Source of the DNA: Acrasis kona
Taxonomy: Eukaryota; Heterolobosea; Eutetramitea; Acrasida; Acrasidae
Reading direction: 5' to 3'
DNA: 64,000 nt
Assembly (NCBI GenBank): GCA_026419775.2
Contig: JAOPGA020001001.1
Span: 1 to 64,000, forward strand
Part shown: one piece after another, positions 21,799 to 42,949 of the stretch
How positions within the stretch are numbered: position 1 is the first letter of the stretch
How the letters are laid out: the number at the start of each line of letters is the position of its first letter
The notes under the pieces: generated by a model
The model's input: the letters and a program-made list of their open reading frames with translations, nothing else
The model's database searches: none
Told to the model about the DNA's origin: nothing
Made by a program: the position numbers and the translations under genes

Positions 21799-22434
21799 TC
21801 AACAAACTGTACCCTTTGTAGTTTCTGCTTGAACAGTGTGGCTGTTGAATTTCTTATTCTTATCGTAAGCAGCGGTACTGAACCACGTCCCGTTTATACT
21901 GGCCTTTTTGTACTCAATGAATCCATCGCTTACTAGTCCTCGACCAACACCATAAACCTTTGGAGTAAGCTCTTCCATCCTTGAATGTTTGTACCACACC
22001 GGGCTTTTTGATTTGCCAAGAAATGTTTGGGTTGCCGAGTCTGGAATGTATTTGTGCAACCTTTTTGTGCAATGATGACGGGCTAGAGCTTTTGATGTAC
22101 TTTCAAGCGCTTGATTGGTACCATGAACGCCTCTTGTCAAAGTGCTGTTAAAATCTTCCCAGGGAAAGCATGAAGAAGTCCATAAAGGACCAAATTTTCT
22201 AACACAACTCACAATATGCCTTAATAAATGGATGTTACCAGTGCATCGCTCCTCCCCTGCAAGTATTTGACACCACGACAAAAAGTATAAAATTTGCTGC
22301 TCTGCCTTGTCGAGTTGTTCGATTGTAATACCATCACTTACAAGAACACGAATGGCTTCAACAAACTGTAATAACATTCCACTAATACGTTCGGGTAACA
22401 TGGGGCAGATAACAGATGGAAGAAAATAAAGCAA
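21799..22434 (-). pseudogene. CACTA (En/Spm) transposon remnant: DUF4218-type C-terminal domain
   Basis: The frame reads LDKAEQQILYFLSWCQILAG, HLLRHIVSCVRKFGPLWTSS and CFPWEDFNSTLTRGVHGTNQ. This matches the region downstream of the CACTA transposase (heart-shaped LHxHL...FGP..CF.FE.NG pattern, DUF4218). The transposase domain proper is missing, the track's start is a TTG, and no terminal repeats were found. It ends about 40 bases from the hAT fragment in the same orientation. Confidence 0.75.
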
Positions 22435-22474
22435 AACACTCTTTTTTCAGCTGCTTTGAATGAGGCAAAGTATT

Positions 22475-35215: not shown

Positions 35216-35400
35216 TTCGACTATTTCCCTTTGATTATCATGACAATATTACAACACCACTCAACCATAACAGTGAAGGAATACTGGTCTATACACGGCT
35301 ATGGGGATATTTATTTAAAACATCACTTTTCAATTGTGTACCACATTTCTTATGAAATTTAGCAATTTCAGACGTAAAAGAACCAAATTTGGAGTTGGAA

Positions 35401-36493
35401 GATAGACACTCTAACCAGACACTCTAACTCTAAACTTTTTAACCATATTTGGACACACTAAATAATTTGCCCGCAAACACTACAGTTACAAAGACACAAG
35501 ATGGCGCAAACACAAGAGTCCGTTAAACACAGCTGGCGCGAACACAAAGTATAAAATGATCGAAGACATGTAATATTTAATAAACAAACACAACATGACT
35601 CNAAGAAAGACTCTTGCAAAAAGATTTCAAATTAAATCCATTGTTCAAAACATCCAAGAAGCTGAAGAGCGCCAAATACTATTCATAACATCCATGCCGT
35701 TTCACCAAGAGTGCAAGGTCTCACTGGTTTATTTGATTACATTTGTTCTTTACGAGTTGACCCAACTGAACTCAATTTTGAATGCAGACAACACGAACGG
35801 TACGTTAGGATCCTTGCTTTCCTCTGATGTGGATTCCTAAGTCAACTCTTATGTTGTACCGTATACAGAAGAAGAGAGAGAATTGAATGTTACAACCTTC
35901 TTTGAGGACAATAACATTAGTCTTGCAGATGTGGATACCTGTGATGTGACATTATCACCACAAGCTAACATTAGTCTTGGAGGTGCAGATACTTATGACA
36001 TGATGTCATCACCACAAACGAATACATTTGAGCTTCCTTAAACTCCAACTCAACACACTCTAGCATCTCCGTTAATGCAGTCACAAGTACCAACACTAGA
36101 TCCATTTCACCAATAACTGACTCTCCAGTAGCGCAGTTAAGGAAGAAAAAGAGGGACAATGGAACAACACCGGATAAAACACTTAAACACTACCAGTGAG
36201 TCAAGAATGATTCGGATGATTGCCAGTAATCCTTCACTTTTGAATGGTTTGAGAAGGAGCAGATGATTCACAAACTTTGAATAATATGGGGCTGATGAGG
36301 AGGATGACACTGAATATGCTGTCCCTTTGACATGAGATACTCTACTGGAAATGAAGCAAAGAGAACCAAAGAAAATTTACAATTAAAATGTTTATTTTTA
36401 TCAAGTTATTTCTATTTTGAGTTTAGAGTATCTGTTTATAGATTAGAGTGCGGGAAATTCCAAATTTGTATAAAATAGGTTAGAGTGTCTATC
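35401..36493. mobile_element. 1.1-kb non-autonomous DNA element with 16-bp terminal inverted repeats
   Basis: GATAGACACTCTAACC (35401-35416) is repeated as its exact reverse complement at 36478-36493. Inside each end are further copies of the core ACTCTAA. Reading the ends one step in gives TA-GACACTC...GAGTGTC-TA, as for a mariner-type element, but no transposase is present. It holds only a short frame (from the ATG at 35595, with an ambiguous base N at 35602) and no recognised domain. Its right end abuts the larger element exactly and contains the larger element's target duplication. Confidence 0.6.
36487..36493. repeat. Target-site duplication, left copy (GTCTATC)
   Basis: Seven bases identical to 42379-42385, directly outside the two terminal inverted repeats. 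Confidence 0.75.
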
Positions 36494-36511
36494 GAGACAA
36501 CTCAGTTTCCC
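36494..36511 (+). repeat. Left terminal inverted repeat of the MULE-type element
   Basis: 18 bp, perfect inverse match to 42361-42378. Confidence 0.85.
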
Positions 36512-36932
36512 CTCTCCTTTTCTCCCTTTCTCCTTTTTATTTTGCCCTCTCCTCGCGGCCACGACATATTTGTCTATCCATTTTTATCCTTATTTATATT
36601 TATAATTTACTAGTTGACTGTGAAACACACAATATGTAGACCTGCACACGACGTTTGCGGCAACAATAGTTGCATGCTTGAGTAAATAGAAGAAATTGAA
36701 TATGAGGGTATATTATTGAACTTAAAGAAGAATCTAATCGTATAGTTTTTACAGATTTAGTTTAAGTAAGGGTTTTTGGATACGGAAGACGTTTGTCTAT
36801 AAATGTTCAACAACAAGAGTCCTATTTTTATTGTGACAACGGTATGTGTTATAAAATGCTCCTTATTTATACAAAAGATCGGCTTAAAAACGAAGTGACG
36901 AAGAGGAATAAAAGTAAAAAAAAAACAAAAAC

Positions 36933-39900
36933 ATGAACGTCATCACAAGATTATTGATCTTATGTTTGCTTGCTGCAATTTGCAGCAGTAACCCTAATTA
37001 CAGCCCTGTCACTGACCTAGGCCGCACCAACCGTAACAATGGCAACATTGTTTTAATCAACAACAACAACAACATCCCTGGCAACAGGATCAACAACAAC
37101 AACACCAACAACCACTACAATCCTGGTGACGCAACCAACCCTGGCATGCATACCAACCAGAACACCATCAACAACACCCCCAACAACATCATCAACCCTG
37201 GCTCCCATGCCAACCGTAACAACCCCAACAACAACAACCACATCCTTGTCAACAGGATCACCCACAACAACACCCCCAGCAACAACAACATCATCAACCC
37301 TGGCTACCGTGCCAACCCCAACAACAACAACATCCTTGGCAACAGGATTACCCACATTCACACCCCCAGCAACAACAACAACAACAACAACCACACTCTT
37401 GGCAACAGGATCAACAACAACAACCTCATCAACCCTGGCTACCATGCCAACCACAACAACAACAACCTCAACCCCAACCTCAACCACATCCCTGGCAACA
37501 GGATCATCAACAACAACACCCCCAGCAACAACAACAACAACCTCATCAACCCTGGCTACCATGCCAACTCCAACAACAGCACCAACTACAACCACATCCC
37601 TGGCAACAGGATCATCAACAACACCACCACCATCAACAACAACAACAACAACAGCAACAGGAATATCACTTGGGACGACTATGCATGTCAACCTGGTACC
37701 TTCTTTAATGAGAACAATATCACCTTGAATGATGGTATTCTTACAGAAGGTACAGAGTACGTTGATGGTCCTATTGTCTTAAATGACGAGGTTGTGGTTG
37801 GTGTACAAAGCCAGTACAACTCTAGTAGTGCAACAGATATAAGCGATTCTGATCTGAGTGCCATCCACTGCATGATTCCTGCTTCAGACATCATTAAAGT
37901 GAGTGACAGGAACCAGCTCCTGTACAATGGTCAAACATTCCAGCACCATTCTACAAATTCAAGGGGTGAATCTCACTATAGGTGTTCTGCCTACAAACAG
38001 TTGAGGTGCGGATGCAAGATTATTATGCGAACTAAACAGTCTGGTGAAGTTGAATATGAGCTTGTTCGGTTTCACAACCACAGTGTTGTTGCCCAAGGTA
38101 TGCCAGTACTGAGGCCTGAGAGACTTGAGTATCTCCGGACTTACATTAGGGACAACATGCATGAGACCAATCTGAGGCTGATCCAAGATGTTGTGAATGG
38201 AAACAATGTTTTGCCTACATCGCAAAGAAGTGATAGAACAATGTACATCACCCACGACCACATCAAAAGGGCAAGGAAAGAATTCCAAACTGCAAGAATT
38301 GATACTGTCCTAGATGTTGCAAACAGGCCGGATCTTGCCCAGACTTTAGATGGTGGCAGCTTCTTCCAAGGTCTCCATGTCCAACCTAGACTGTTCACAC
38401 TGCTGTTTGCATCAAATTGGATGTTGAACTTGCTCAACTCAGTGACTGAGCATGATCAGCTGTTCATTGATGGTACATTCAGCACTGTTCCTCAAGGTGT
38501 AGCTCAGTTGATTGTTGTAATGGTGTTGAAACGTGGTTCTACAAGAGCACAGCCAGTGACGTTTGCATGGACTCAATCTAGAACTATTGTGGAGTATGAG
38601 TTCATGTGGAGGAGAATTCTAGATCTNGCACCCAATCTGGCCACTGTTCCAAAAATATATGCCACAATTGATTTTGAATATTCTCACATCAGTGCCATAA
38701 AAAATGTGTTTAGCAATGTTCAAATTGTAGGTTGTATGTTCCACTTTCTACAAGCAATAGTGAGGCATATATCCAAGAAGCTGATTCAGTTCCGTACGCT
38801 CCTAGATGCTAATGAGGAGCTACGTAATAAACTGTTGGACAACTTGCGAGAATTGGTTCAGGCTCCCAATCAAGCGACGTTCAATGCTTTGCTGTCAAGC
38901 TTTATTCCTAGGTGGTATAATCAAATTGGTGGCCAAGACTACATCAGGTACATGACCAACACTTGGCTGAACCAGAGTTCAAGATTCCCTCCAAGCATTT
39001 GGTGTCATGGTTTCTTTGGTAGAGACGATGTGCTTAGGACCAATAACATGGTGGAAACTTTTAACAGGGAGATTAACCAAAGCAAGCAACGACACGCAAA
39101 GCTTGATATCAAGCAATCAGTGCAATTGTTACAACGCCTTGAGCAGAGACGAGCTAGAGAATATAATCAGCAGATATTCAACGCTCAAGAGAGGGACAAC
39201 AGACCACTTGCTAGAGGACGTAATGCTGCTGTACCTGTTGTTGCTTCTGTTCCCACACCTGTTCCCACACCTGTTCCTACACCTGTTCCTACACCTGTTC
39301 CTACACAACAACGTTTCTACGCCCGTTGTACCGCCAGTTGTTGCACCACCAAACAACTATGAGATCACTATGGCATTTCTAAACTCTATTAGAGATGACG
39401 ACGATGATGAACCGGCTCCAGTTACTTTGCCACAACACACACCACTACAGCACCATCCACAGGTACAACCTCCAGTACAACCCCGAGTGCAACATCCAGT
39501 TATGCTGCCCAATGCCCCACAACCGCACATTGTGCCACTTGTTCAACCTCAACAGCAGCAGCGTTATCAAATACCAACTCGCAATGCTAGAGAGGCTGCA
39601 AACAATTTAAATACAGGCAGAGGAAGAGGCAGAGGCAGAGGCAGAGGAAGAGGCAGAGGAACCAAGAGAGCAAGGGATGGAGATCCAATAGCACAATTTA
39701 CTGGTAGTTTTGTGCTAGAGCCTCCACAAGGTCCTCCACAAGGTCCTCCACAAGGTCCTCCACAAGGTCTGCAGCGGCAATCTAATGTAAGATAAATATT
39801 ACTTTGATTTAATGCTTATTAGGTTATTAGTAGCAAAATTATCAGCGCCGCTGAATCTAACCAGTACACTCTCCATCAGTACTTTAAAGTCAAGTTACCT

Positions 39901-40305
39901 TCCTCACGATTAGCGCCGTTACAGGTAGGCAGTAATAACAAGGTTGTGAATGACATCAAAAGAGTTTTGGAAAACGTTGAACAGGATCCAGATATTGTTG
40001 TGCAAGAGTCAAACAATATAGTGCAACAATCATCTACCTCAGACGACGATTCATCAATTTCTACAGATTCAACCATGGAGGGGGAGTACATGCTTTCGGC
40101 AAGAGACTTGGTGGAATCTGATTTCATTCCATCTGCCTTTTTGGATGATGACTTCTGTGACTATTCCACTTCATCTGATATGTCTGAAGATGAAATGGAG
40201 ACTTTTGCAGATCTTGCTAGGAAGGAGATAAGAAGAGCGGCTAGAGAGAGGAGGGTAGCAAAAAAAAGGAGAGTGGCAAAAGGAAAGAAACAACGTCGTG
40301 AATAA
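36933..40305 (+). CDS. MULE-type transposase with Asn-rich N-terminus and PIP-box tail
   Basis: Exons are 36933-39786 and 39823-40305, with a 36-nt intron; 1111 residues if one base is dropped near 39305-39320, where the frame shifts (T3 or the CA-rich run). The N-terminus looks like a signal peptide (MNVITRLLILCLLAAICSS), followed by about 210 Asn-rich repeat residues encoded by a minisatellite. The transposase core has a Cys/His DNA-binding segment (HYRCSAYKQLRCGCKI) and the DDE fold: LFIDGTF near 38465, ATIDFEYSHI near 38665 with the MULE-typical VGCMFHFLQA, and TNNMVETFNREIN near 39055. The tail has PTPV repeats, an RG-rich block, QYTLHQYF (39862-39885, a PCNA-binding PIP-box pattern), an acidic stretch and a basic nuclear-import-like end. 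Confidence 0.85.
37040..37660 (+). repeat. Left subterminal minisatellite (CAACAACA / CATCCCTGGCAACAGGAT units)
   Basis: Imperfect units combine AAC triplets with CATCCCTGGCAACAGGATCA and ACCCCCAGCAACAAC. They encode the Asn-rich NPGYHAN / PGNRI repeats of the transposase start. The same unit occurs inverted at 42127-42262. The opposite-strand frame here (Val-rich) is a shadow. Confidence 0.85.
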
Positions 40306-40706
40306 ATGTTAGTTTGTTACAGATTGTGTTAATCTCTTTGAAAGTAGATCATATACAATTCTGCTTCTAAGTATACTTTGTATAAACACCTTGCTTGACG
40401 TTTTTTATTATCGTATTCTTGAAGTTGATAACAAACGTACTACAATAAGACAATTGTTTTATGATATTACATCTATAGTTGTATTTGTGCAAATTTTACA
40501 TTTTGTCCAAACATCTATATCATGCAACATACTTGGCTGGGAGATTGCCGAGGATGAGAGTATATAGCTTATATATATACCTTGTCCACATAGTAGTATG
40601 GAGGCTAGTACTTGTACGATGCTTTACGAGTGATCACTCAAACCTCAAGTATCTTTTTTTATATCAGATTTATTGTAAAATCAAATCAAACAAACTGAAA
40701 ACATCA

Positions 40707-42098
40707 ATGTTACGCAAAGACCAATGCATAGTCTGTGAAAAACATTTACGACGATTCTTTGTTAAGAATTTTGTTTTAAAAGATGATGAAATTTCAATAT
40801 TCGGTATAAAAAACGCCCGCAAAGGATGGGTTTGCCGAGCATGTTATGATTTGGTGGGGAAAAAACGAAAAGAGACATTGCACAACAAAGTTTCTTCATA
40901 TGACATAGGTGCGGCTGAACGAAATAACAGGTTGGAATTTGAATTTATTCCACGGCCAACATCTACGCAGGCAGGTAATTTATTTATTACTGTTATATTG
41001 ATTAGTTTAGAAGTCACTCCAACCTTGATTCCTGTTGAAATTTTAACCTCAGATATACTAGATGGAATTTATGAAAATGATCACATTAAAATTCAAGGTC
41101 TAATTGATACACTAGATTCCTTGCCTGTGGATGTGCTTTACCAGATGCAGTTGACGTTTTATCGTAAACATAATTATAAGAGCGACAGGTGCCCAGGTAC
41201 ACCTTCAACATCGTCAAATTATGACGGTTCCCGCGCAACTATTGACTCTTTAATTGGAGATGGATTTAAAAATATAGACTATAATCATTACATGAGGAGC
41301 GTGGATATGAGTTTGTTATGTCAATTTCATGTTGACTCTGACATACTGTCAAAAGAAATGCTGAGTGAAATGAACAACAGCACATTAGCATTTTGGAAGG
41401 AGAGAAACCCAAGTGTGCGCAAAACGTCAAGAGGTCTGGAGTGTGGAGTCCACCTAGGATATTGGAGAAGGAACGGCAACTACGGTAATGACATTAGTTT
41501 AATTGCAGGAATCGAATTAGACGATGCTAAAAGATGGATATTGCACTTTCGCAAGCTAGGTGCGTATTATTTAACAAGTAATTTAAAATTTATAGGTGTG
41601 TGGGATGCGTTGAACAGATACTTTTTTGAAAGCAACCCAGAGATGTTCAACCACTTTTTAAAAATCAAAATCCCATCAGAGCACAAACGACACTTTGGAG
41701 TTTTTGAAGCTGTGGCTTTAAACTTCAATTTTCCCTGCCTTGTTCATCAGGACACCAAAGATAGCCCAGATACACACTGCGTTGTTGTAACTTTTGGAAC
41801 ATTTGAAGATGGAGGGGTTATAATTTTACATTGTGTGCATGTCGTGTATTACACAAAGCCCGGCTGTATTGCTCAATTTAAAGCAAAAAACATTTTTCAC
41901 GAGAGTACAAAACATAAAGTTGGACATCGATTTGTTATGGTTCTATTCGTGGATGCGAATTCTTTCTATGAAAGTGTTTCACAGTGTTACGAAGAATCTC
42001 CTAACAAGCCTGTTTTCGAATTTATAAAAGAATGCAAGAGGAAAGAAAGGGAAGAAAAGGAAGCAAAAAAAAGTGAAACAAAGAGGAGAAGGCTGTAA
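40707..42098 (+). CDS. TET/JBP-like 2-oxoglutarate/Fe(II) dioxygenase encoded in the transposon
   Basis: The ATG at 40707 starts MLRKDQCIVC. Two 36-nt introns (40975-41010 and 41560-41595) have good GT...AG ends and are multiples of three without stops; removing them gives 439 residues. The N-terminus has CxxC pairs at residues 7/10 and 43/46, a zinc-finger-like module. The C-terminal half shows the double-stranded beta-helix signature: VHQDTKDSPD (HxD iron ligands), FGTFEDGGVIIL, KPGCIAQF, NIFHES (distal His) and GHRFVMVLF (Arg that would bind 2OG). This order matches TET/JBP-type nucleic-acid oxygenases, which are known from fungal transposons. The end is highly basic. A prolyl-hydroxylase-like enzyme is the alternative; substrate is not shown. 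Confidence 0.75.
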   Translation: MLRKDQCIVCEKHLRRFFVKNFVLKDDEISIFGIKNARKGWVCRACYDLVGKKRKETLHNKVSSYDIGAAERNNRLEFEFIPRPTSTQAGNLFITVILISLEVTPTLIPVEILTSDILDGIYENDHIKIQGLIDTLDSLPVDVLYQMQLTFYRKHNYKSDRCPGTPSTSSNYDGSRATIDSLIGDGFKNIDYNHYMRSVDMSLLCQFHVDSDILSKEMLSEMNNSTLAFWKERNPSVRKTSRGLECGVHLGYWRRNGNYGNDISLIAGIELDDAKRWILHFRKLGAYYLTSNLKFIGVWDALNRYFFESNPEMFNHFLKIKIPSEHKRHFGVFEAVALNFNFPCLVHQDTKDSPDTHCVVVTFGTFEDGGVIILHCVHVVYYTKPGCIAQFKAKNIFHESTKHKVGHRFVMVLFVDANSFYESVSQCYEESPNKPVFEFIKECKRKEREEKEAKKSETKRRRL

Positions 42099-42126
42099 CA
42101 CATTAGCAGATACTAATTGCATTGCT

Positions 42127-42262
42127 GGGGGTGATCCTGTTGCCAGGGATGTGGTTGTGGTTGTTGCTGGGGGTGTTGTTGTTGTTGTAGTTGTTGCTGG
42201 GGGTGTTGATGTGGGTGATCCTGTTGCCAGGGATGTGGTTGTTATTGTTGTTGACACTGTTG
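42127..42262 (-). repeat. Right subterminal minisatellite, inverted copy of the left one
   Basis: Read on the minus strand it has the same ATCCCTGGCAACAGGATCA and ACCCCCAGCAACAAC units as 37040-37660. It lies just after the dioxygenase stop. Confidence 0.85.
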
Positions 42263-42360
42263 TATCGAAAATAAACATTTATTTATATGTGGAAAAATCG
42301 CGGGAGCGTTCCTTTCCTTTTTTTTTTACTATTTCCGTCAGGGGAAAGGAGACAGGAGGG

Positions 42361-42378
42361 GGGAAACTGAGTTGTCTC
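42361..42378 (-). repeat. Right terminal inverted repeat of the MULE-type element
   Basis: 18 bp, exact reverse complement of 36494-36511. Confidence 0.85.
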
Positions 42379-42385
42379 GTCTATC
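42379..42385. repeat. Target-site duplication, right copy (GTCTATC)
   Basis: Identical to 36487-36493 and adjacent to the right terminal repeat. Confidence 0.75.
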
Positions 42386-42949
42386 CATAGACCCCCAAAT
42401 TTGATAAAAAGATTGCTCGGTCATCTAAGGACAGTCAGTTTTACTCTACATAAGATTCAGTAACATCTGTGAACATCTACTGTGTTTTTTCTTCACGGCA
42501 ATGAATCAAGTTACAATAGACGTATAAACATATTATAGTAATTATAATTCCAAGGTTATGGGAACCGTATCCTTACAATAAACCTCAAAACCACTTGTTG
42601 AAAGTTTTTTTCATCATCTTGTTTGTCACATGATAAATAACACATTGTGTATAAATTGCTGTTCTATCATTGCTCCTGGATTGTTCAATCATTGCTACAG
42701 TTTACAAATGTTCAATACAAAAGTTCACTTGATATCATTCACAAAAATTGCAGCTAAATGAGTATTTGAATATCTAGTAATATGACTAATGCTCGCAAGT
42801 TCACATAAGAAGATAAAAAAAGTTTTTCTAAAAATAAATATCTGTTGTAAAGTCGGACACTTTTCATTCAACAAGAATGTTTTTCACACATTTGCAAAAA
42901 ATCGAAAAACAAAAAGCATTCCAAAGATTTTGATCTCCCCAAATACATA
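42386..42949. other. Intergenic region upstream of RPLP0
   Basis: About 560 AT-rich bases between the mobile element and RPLP0. It presumably holds the RPLP0 promoter. No coding frame or repeat supported. Confidence 0.5.

Follow-up and report, generated by a model that had tools for sequence, protein, structure and literature searches.

Does the TET/JBP-type dioxygenase gene found between the ends of a DNA transposon in the heterolobosean social amoeba Acrasis kona belong to that transposon, and if so, what would it do there? Gene and transposon, a Mutator-like element (MULE), lie in positions 1 to 64,000 of contig JAOPGA020001001.1 (assembly GCA_026419775.2); this whole stretch of 64,000 nucleotides is called the window below, and other contigs are denoted by C and a number. 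The element is a TET-positive MULE, in which TET gene and transposase are enclosed by one pair of terminal repeats with a target duplication, and this linkage recurs in the genome. We consider it probable that the TET/JBP gene is a regular cargo of the element that lifts silencing by 5-methylcytosine (5mC), and that the same cassette is carried by several transposon types. Established within this reading are the element structure, the recurrence of the linkage, the TET/JBP type of the enzyme, its catalytic residues, selection on its relatives, a DNMT1-like gene and CpG-specific decay.

An earlier note, made from the letters of the window, had described a TET/JBP-like gene in a MULE-type transposon of an amoeba-like genome, inside intact terminal repeats and a target duplication; the host is indeed a heterolobosean, and repeats and duplication could both be confirmed. 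The two repeats are identical in 37 of 42 alignment columns (one column is a base outside the element), and the outermost 19 bases are the same at both ends: the left end reads GAGACAACTCAGTTTCCCC at 36494 and its complement ends at 42378. The end of the element was set at GAGACAACTCAG because the preceding base differs among copies, the same G starting the element's sequence on other contigs while the base before it changes. The target duplication of 7 bp is legible at the window copy only, which is the sole copy with both ends (a motif search of the other fetched copies gave no second intact end); MULE target duplications are about 8–11 bp. The assignment of the carrier to MULE is supported by PF10551 in the transposase (E = 3.1e-7, 31.2 bits, above the cut-off of 27.6). 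The transposase also matches the FLYWCH family PF04500 above cut-off (E = 2.8e-5), and the ratio of nonsynonymous to synonymous substitution rates (dN/dS) between the window and C158 copies is 0.09. Inverted repeats at 37.1–37.7 and 42.1–42.3 kb were considered as element ends and rejected, being low-complexity CAACAA/TTGTTG sequence.

Empty sites were searched with a query in which the flanks were joined after removal of the element and one target copy, so that the joint lies after base 73. In the genome copy searched (37.35 Mb), seven places (C939, C554, C32, C518, C889, C976 and C408) match across the joint at 80–97% identity, with the match beginning at query base 1, 3 or 9 and reaching base 82 or 83, and these are paralogous empty sites of the MULE insertion. 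Only 9–10 bases match past the joint because the older repeat that hosts the MULE ends there. This older repeat has GTTAGAGTGTCTATC-type inverted ends, spans 35395–36493 and 42386–42400, and its end recurs at seven or more other places in the genome.

The genome search for further copies with both genes, which the earlier note had suggested, found contig C432, on which transposase, open reading frame (ORF) 3, a TET part and the right terminus follow each other in the window order at 94–97% identity (its TET frame is interrupted, and the left element end lies beyond the contig). The right-end region of the element stands 3′ of TET on the same strand on C274, C432, C845, C116 and C656 as well as in the window; on C23 the right end is about 6.5 kb from TET, and we take the gap for an inserted repeat. 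An internally deleted form of 2.0 kb, 98.3% identical between the two, is present on C656 and C116, with the same start terminus and different flanking DNA; no target duplication is readable at these short forms because their right ends stop inside the terminal repeat. From the linkage of TET to the right ends and from this mobile short form, it follows that the cargo travels with the element ends. Of the other copies, C807 and C545 are fragments and C193 is rearranged. ORF3 is kept as well (residues 1–93: 95% amino acid identity in C432, 88% in C871; pN/pS, the corresponding ratio of proportions of differences, of 0.31 against the C269 copy).

The residues read in the ORF by the earlier note proved to be in place: HxD (H347/D349), GG, PG, the distal His (H398) and the 2-oxoglutarate (2OG)-binding Arg (R408) occur in the expected order, preceded by two CxxC pairs (C7/C10 and C43/C46), and D349, H398 and R408 are invariant in a nine-row alignment of the TET family. 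Between the TET genes of C778 and C211, dN/dS is 0.07 (C575 and between-group comparisons are saturated at synonymous sites). Tet_JBP (PF12851) was the sole Pfam match listed at E ≤ 10 for this ORF, and seven of the nine family members match it at E ≤ 1. Against the PDB, a profile of the family matched CcTet (E = 1.6e-6) and NgTet1 (E = 2e-4) and no further PDB family at E ≤ 0.01. In addition, CcTet (7vpn, 7w5p, 8jkk) was the best fold match of a structure model of the relative on C778, at 8–9% identity in the structural alignment, with AlkB, FTO and prolyl hydroxylase ranking lower. The TET/JBP type of the window enzyme is thus supported by Pfam, by the profile and by the fold of a relative. 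A single-sequence protein search with the window TET gave nothing at E ≤ 0.001, and a viral-contig scan gave no match; a profile search of a large protein collection, in which the best 8,000 candidates by shared words were scored, returned one protein at E ≤ 0.01, the hypothetical protein AKO1_003123 of A. kona, all 321 residues of which are letter-identical within the C575 ORF. Two in-frame 36-nt GT...AG stretches are probably introns, which leave the frame of the ORF open. The genome publication (44.02 Mbp) gives introns of 9–95 bp (PMC11589745). As a separate observation, ORFs on C623, C542 and C492, one of them 706 amino acids long, share with the window TET just its N-terminal CxxC part (23–24% identity over about 85 residues), which is perhaps a separate zinc module occurring with other proteins. 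The features of the element are collected in Table 1.

Table 1. Positions in the window of the MULE, its host repeat, its genes and the residues of the TET/JBP enzyme
Feature	Position	Strand	Basis
Whole MULE element, 5,885 bp	36494..42378	+	Terminal repeats and target duplication; empty paralogous sites
Left terminal inverted repeat	36494..36534	+	37/42 columns identical to right repeat; same terminus on other contigs
Right terminal inverted repeat	42340..42378	-	Alignment to left repeat
Target site duplication, left copy GTCTATC	36487..36493	.	Direct reading
Target site duplication, right copy GTCTATC	42379..42385	.	Direct reading
End of older repeat hosting the MULE, continues at 42386	36421..36493	+	Seven other genomic copies cross the joint without MULE
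Transposase with FLYWCH zinc finger and MULE DDE domain behind a low-complexity N-terminal part; tail frame differs from copy C432	36933..39362	+	PF10551, PF04500
ORF3, 119 amino acids, acidic then basic, function unknown	39946..40305	+	Conserved among element copies
TET/JBP-type 2OG/Fe(II) dioxygenase gene, N-terminal CxxC...CxxC part	40707..42098	+	PF12851 E 2.6e-5; family profile to CcTet/NgTet1; fold of relative C778
HxD iron-binding motif, H347/D349	41745..41753	+	Alignment and motif reading
Distal iron-binding His, H398	41898..41900	+	Alignment and motif reading
2OG-binding Arg, R408	41928..41930	+	Alignment and motif reading
Probable intron 1 of TET gene, 36 nt, in frame	40975..41010	+	GT...AG; splicing predicted
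Probable intron 2 of TET gene, 36 nt, in frame	41560..41595	+	GT...AG; extra residues absent from relatives; splicing predicted

Regarding a possible target of the enzyme, C395 encodes a protein with BAH and C5-methylase parts whose best PDB match is DNMT1, and PF00145 (C5-cytosine methylase) was found above cut-off on six contigs (C395, C767, C143, C486, C921 and C224). CpG decay was counted by aligning the element with seven contigs, in nine alignments that each span at least 200 bases at 88% identity or more (other loci, C158, C475, C656 and C116 among them, were left out). C/T-type differences were concentrated at CpG (79/315 for CpG, 87/1480 for CpA, 27/685 for CpC and 60/1080 for CpT), with 273 transitions and 68 transversions overall. 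For CpG, the observed/expected ratio was lower in the MULE core (0.35) than in the TET ORF (0.84); outside the element it averaged 0.80 (sd 0.12) over 78 window stretches of 1400 bases that overlap by half. With expectations taken from the codon usage of five genes in the window, the MULE core should hold about 74 CpGs but has 25, and the TET coding part should hold about 62 but has 38. Judged from these counts, the element copies look as if they had long been CpG-methylated, the TET part less so; the milder depletion in TET than in the transposase of the same element may come from later capture or from protection, both being possible, and differences in codon usage could contribute to the pattern.

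In the mechanism that we propose, the host would methylate CpGs of the element and thereby silence it, and the element's enzyme would oxidise 5mC in its own and in related DNA. The methylation would then be lost or read differently, so that the transposase could be expressed long enough for movement, and the TET gene would be a cassette acquired by several transposon types in this genome. Such an escape from silencing by oxidation of a methylated base would be in line with the DNMT1-like enzyme and the CpG decay of the elements, which lend it indirect support. That 5mC silencing is lifted in this way has been suggested before for TET-positive transposons of fungi (PMC12730594).

Members of the TET family also lie next to transposases of one or more other types in the A. 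kona genome. The window TET matches 74 stretches and the distant C539 TET matches 52; merging gave 63 places on 62 contigs, several of them weak (E near 1e-4). The merged set leaves out three window-TET rows with the N-terminal part only (C623, C542 and C492) and includes 30 of the C539 rows, the others falling on contigs that were in the set before. Distinct loci are fewer than 63 because some near-identical contig pairs may be alleles (C778 and C222 are 99% identical over 7.4 kb). Seventeen of the 63 places, the window included, were read with their surroundings, and the carriers at the other 46 were taken from hit coordinates alone. MULE matches lie within 5 kb of TET at five places: upstream on the same strand on C495, C432 and C871, 3.4 kb downstream on the same strand on C269, and on the opposite strand on C193. 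Plavaka-like matches lie within 5 kb at seven, on the same strand 288–1680 bp downstream of TET on C778, C222, C454, C352 and C211, and on the opposite strand on C371 and C420; since about 1.5% of the genome is within 5 kb of a Plavaka-like match, about one of the 63 places would be expected by random insertion, although transposon insertion is not random. The C778 transposase ORF scored 15.3 bits against the Plavaka model (cut-off 26.3), and C949 and C996, 33% and 32% identical to it, pass the cut-off with their neighbours in frame. No ends were found for the Plavaka-like element of C778 and its relatives. Within the window, the Plavaka-like transposase also has a similar stretch at 22054–22446 (-), which matches it with E = 9.8e-12 and 27% identity and has an open frame of 215 amino acids.

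A distant TET group (C539:7500-13500, C361, C677 and C919) adjoins a large multi-copy ORF with open frames of up to 1,512 amino acids. At these four of the 63 places, the ORF stands on the same strand, 0–608 bp upstream of TET; it gave a weak exonuclease match under cut-off, and CRC-like cysteines and a ULP1-like part seem discernible by eye. It is a possible third, candidate transposon carrier. KDZ transposase and Dicty_CTDC were not found in the genome, and both results are uninformative, as the control genomes also gave no KDZ and Dicty_CTDC had no positive control. A wider reading is conceivable, with our own judgement leaning slightly against it: TET/JBP would be an exchangeable anti-silencing cassette, of which unrelated transposons (MULE, Plavaka-like and perhaps the third, with the large exonuclease-containing protein) each keep a copy under selection while they continue to contend with DNMT1-based CpG silencing, and the TET enzymes would be more the transposons' than the host's.

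Several results weigh against a TET/JBP cargo that lifts 5mC silencing. The search against PF12851 proposed by the earlier note did return the window gene, but at 23.9 bits, which is below the curated cut-off (34.9). No Tet_JBP match at E ≤ 0.1 was obtained for the distant member C539, which counts against TET/JBP membership. The window TET alone reached CcTet in the PDB at E = 0.14 only, and a five-row profile at E = 0.0035 only. Structure prediction, likewise proposed, failed for the window protein, whose model (mean predicted local distance difference test score, pLDDT, of 36.5) was not used; the model that bears on a TET/JBP-type double-stranded beta-helix fold is that of the C778 relative, about 40% identical to the window TET, with its iron-binding residues in stretches of pLDDT below 50. 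Since every CpG-decay alignment includes the window as a partner, the counts are not independent. Near copies of the window TET are weakly constrained or unconstrained, as expected of decaying copies (pN/pS: C432 1.01, C274 1.47, C545 0.43, C23 0.28, C807 0.80); since, in addition, the TET remnant of C656 and C116 has no HxD in the frames printed, many TET copies are dead. The window transposase itself may be defective: its tail lies in another frame than in the C432 copy, so that the window copy may not be fully active, and there is an N at 38627.

Among the alternatives, a true TET/JBP cargo whose substrate is not silencing 5mC survives best, and we regard it as unlikely. The enzyme would act on thymine as JBP does, on N6-methyladenine (6mA) or on RNA, and would mark element DNA or aid transposition. 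It is favoured by the position of A. kona in Discoba, the group of base-J organisms. NgTet1 of Naegleria gruberi acts on thymine too, and N. gruberi has 5mC on repeats with no 5-hydroxymethylcytosine detected despite TET-like enzymes (PMC12344493), so that the TET substrate in Heterolobosea may differ, a further point against the 5mC role; CcTet, the nearest solved relative, also acts on 6mA (PMC12730594). On the other hand, the CpG-specific decay and the DNMT1-like gene point to 5mC as the mark encountered by these elements.

It is rather improbable that the cargo is out of use, the window copy and most relatives being remnants, now decaying, of a TET-bearing family that was active in the past. 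Stops, truncations and a lost HxD in several TET copies, together with the transposase tail and the N, fit such a state, whereas the TET frame of the window is open throughout and those of C778, C575, C211 and C539 are open over 527, 468, 427 and 362 amino acids. Moreover, the pieces on C274, C432, C807 and C545 are 97% identical to the window, suggesting fairly recent spread.

We give very little credence to a host TET gene into or beside which the MULE inserted by chance, and recurrence refutes it in the main. In its favour, 47 of the 63 TET places have no match to the three searched carrier proteins within 5 kb, many of them on short contigs; against it stand the order kept on C432, the TET remnant of the mobile short form behind the same left terminus and the seamless joint with the older repeat. 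The earlier note had also weighed element copies lacking the gene together with a host locus elsewhere: TET is tied to the right end on five further contigs, but window-type TET was not seen in the MULE copies on C158, C51 and C269, which are truncated or more diverged, and a host locus is possible among the 46 places taken from coordinates. An AlkB-like or prolyl-hydroxylase-like 2OG enzyme with no TET link is least probable of all, as a better match to these families appeared neither in the profile search of the PDB nor in the fold comparison.

TET/JBP genes in fungal DNA transposons were already known (PMC12730594), as the earlier note had said; new here are the MULE carrier and the heterolobosean host. 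Among the papers listed in literature searches that took in amoebae, protists and Heterolobosea, none reported this pairing (protist cases may be mentioned in the original fungal paper, Iyer 2014), so that the pairing called new in the earlier note still appears to be so. In the accessible text of PMC12730594, Kojima's carriers are confined to fungi and include no MULE; neither MULE nor Mutator is named, and the introduction mentions MuDR two times, with other cargo. Words starting with TET, methyltransferase or dioxygenase are absent from the main text of PMC11589745, which has one starting with transpos. Because a genome and stage transcriptomes of A. kona are published (PMC11589745), methylation, oxidised bases and expression of the elements are measurable. 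The element also offers a way into the role of TET-like enzymes in Heterolobosea.

Compared with known systems, the element is closest to the fungal TET-positive DNA transposons, which likewise are complete elements with terminal repeats, a target duplication and a TET/JBP dioxygenase gene, and in which TET genes are spread across several carrier types (PMC12730594); it differs in its MULE carrier and in a host that is not a fungus. MuDR elements with the plant Vandal anti-silencing protein or oomycete SET genes are also MuDR-type elements with cargo directed at epigenetic marks, but this cargo is not TET/JBP dioxygenases (PMC12730594). CcTet of Coprinopsis cinerea, which Kojima linked to Kyakuja transposons (PMC12730594), is the best profile and fold match of the A. 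kona family, in spite of the low structural identity and in a comparison made without the N-terminal CxxC part, and NgTet1 (5cg8, 5cg9, 4lt5) is a somewhat weaker one. That the fungal transposon-linked enzyme is slightly nearer than the heterolobosean one would fit acquisition from fungi or an old transposon source common to both. The MULE carrier and the signs of further carriers in a heterolobosean suggest that the tie between TET and transposons is neither fungal nor bound to one transposon family, and point to the same means against silencing having been adopted independently or by horizontal transfer.
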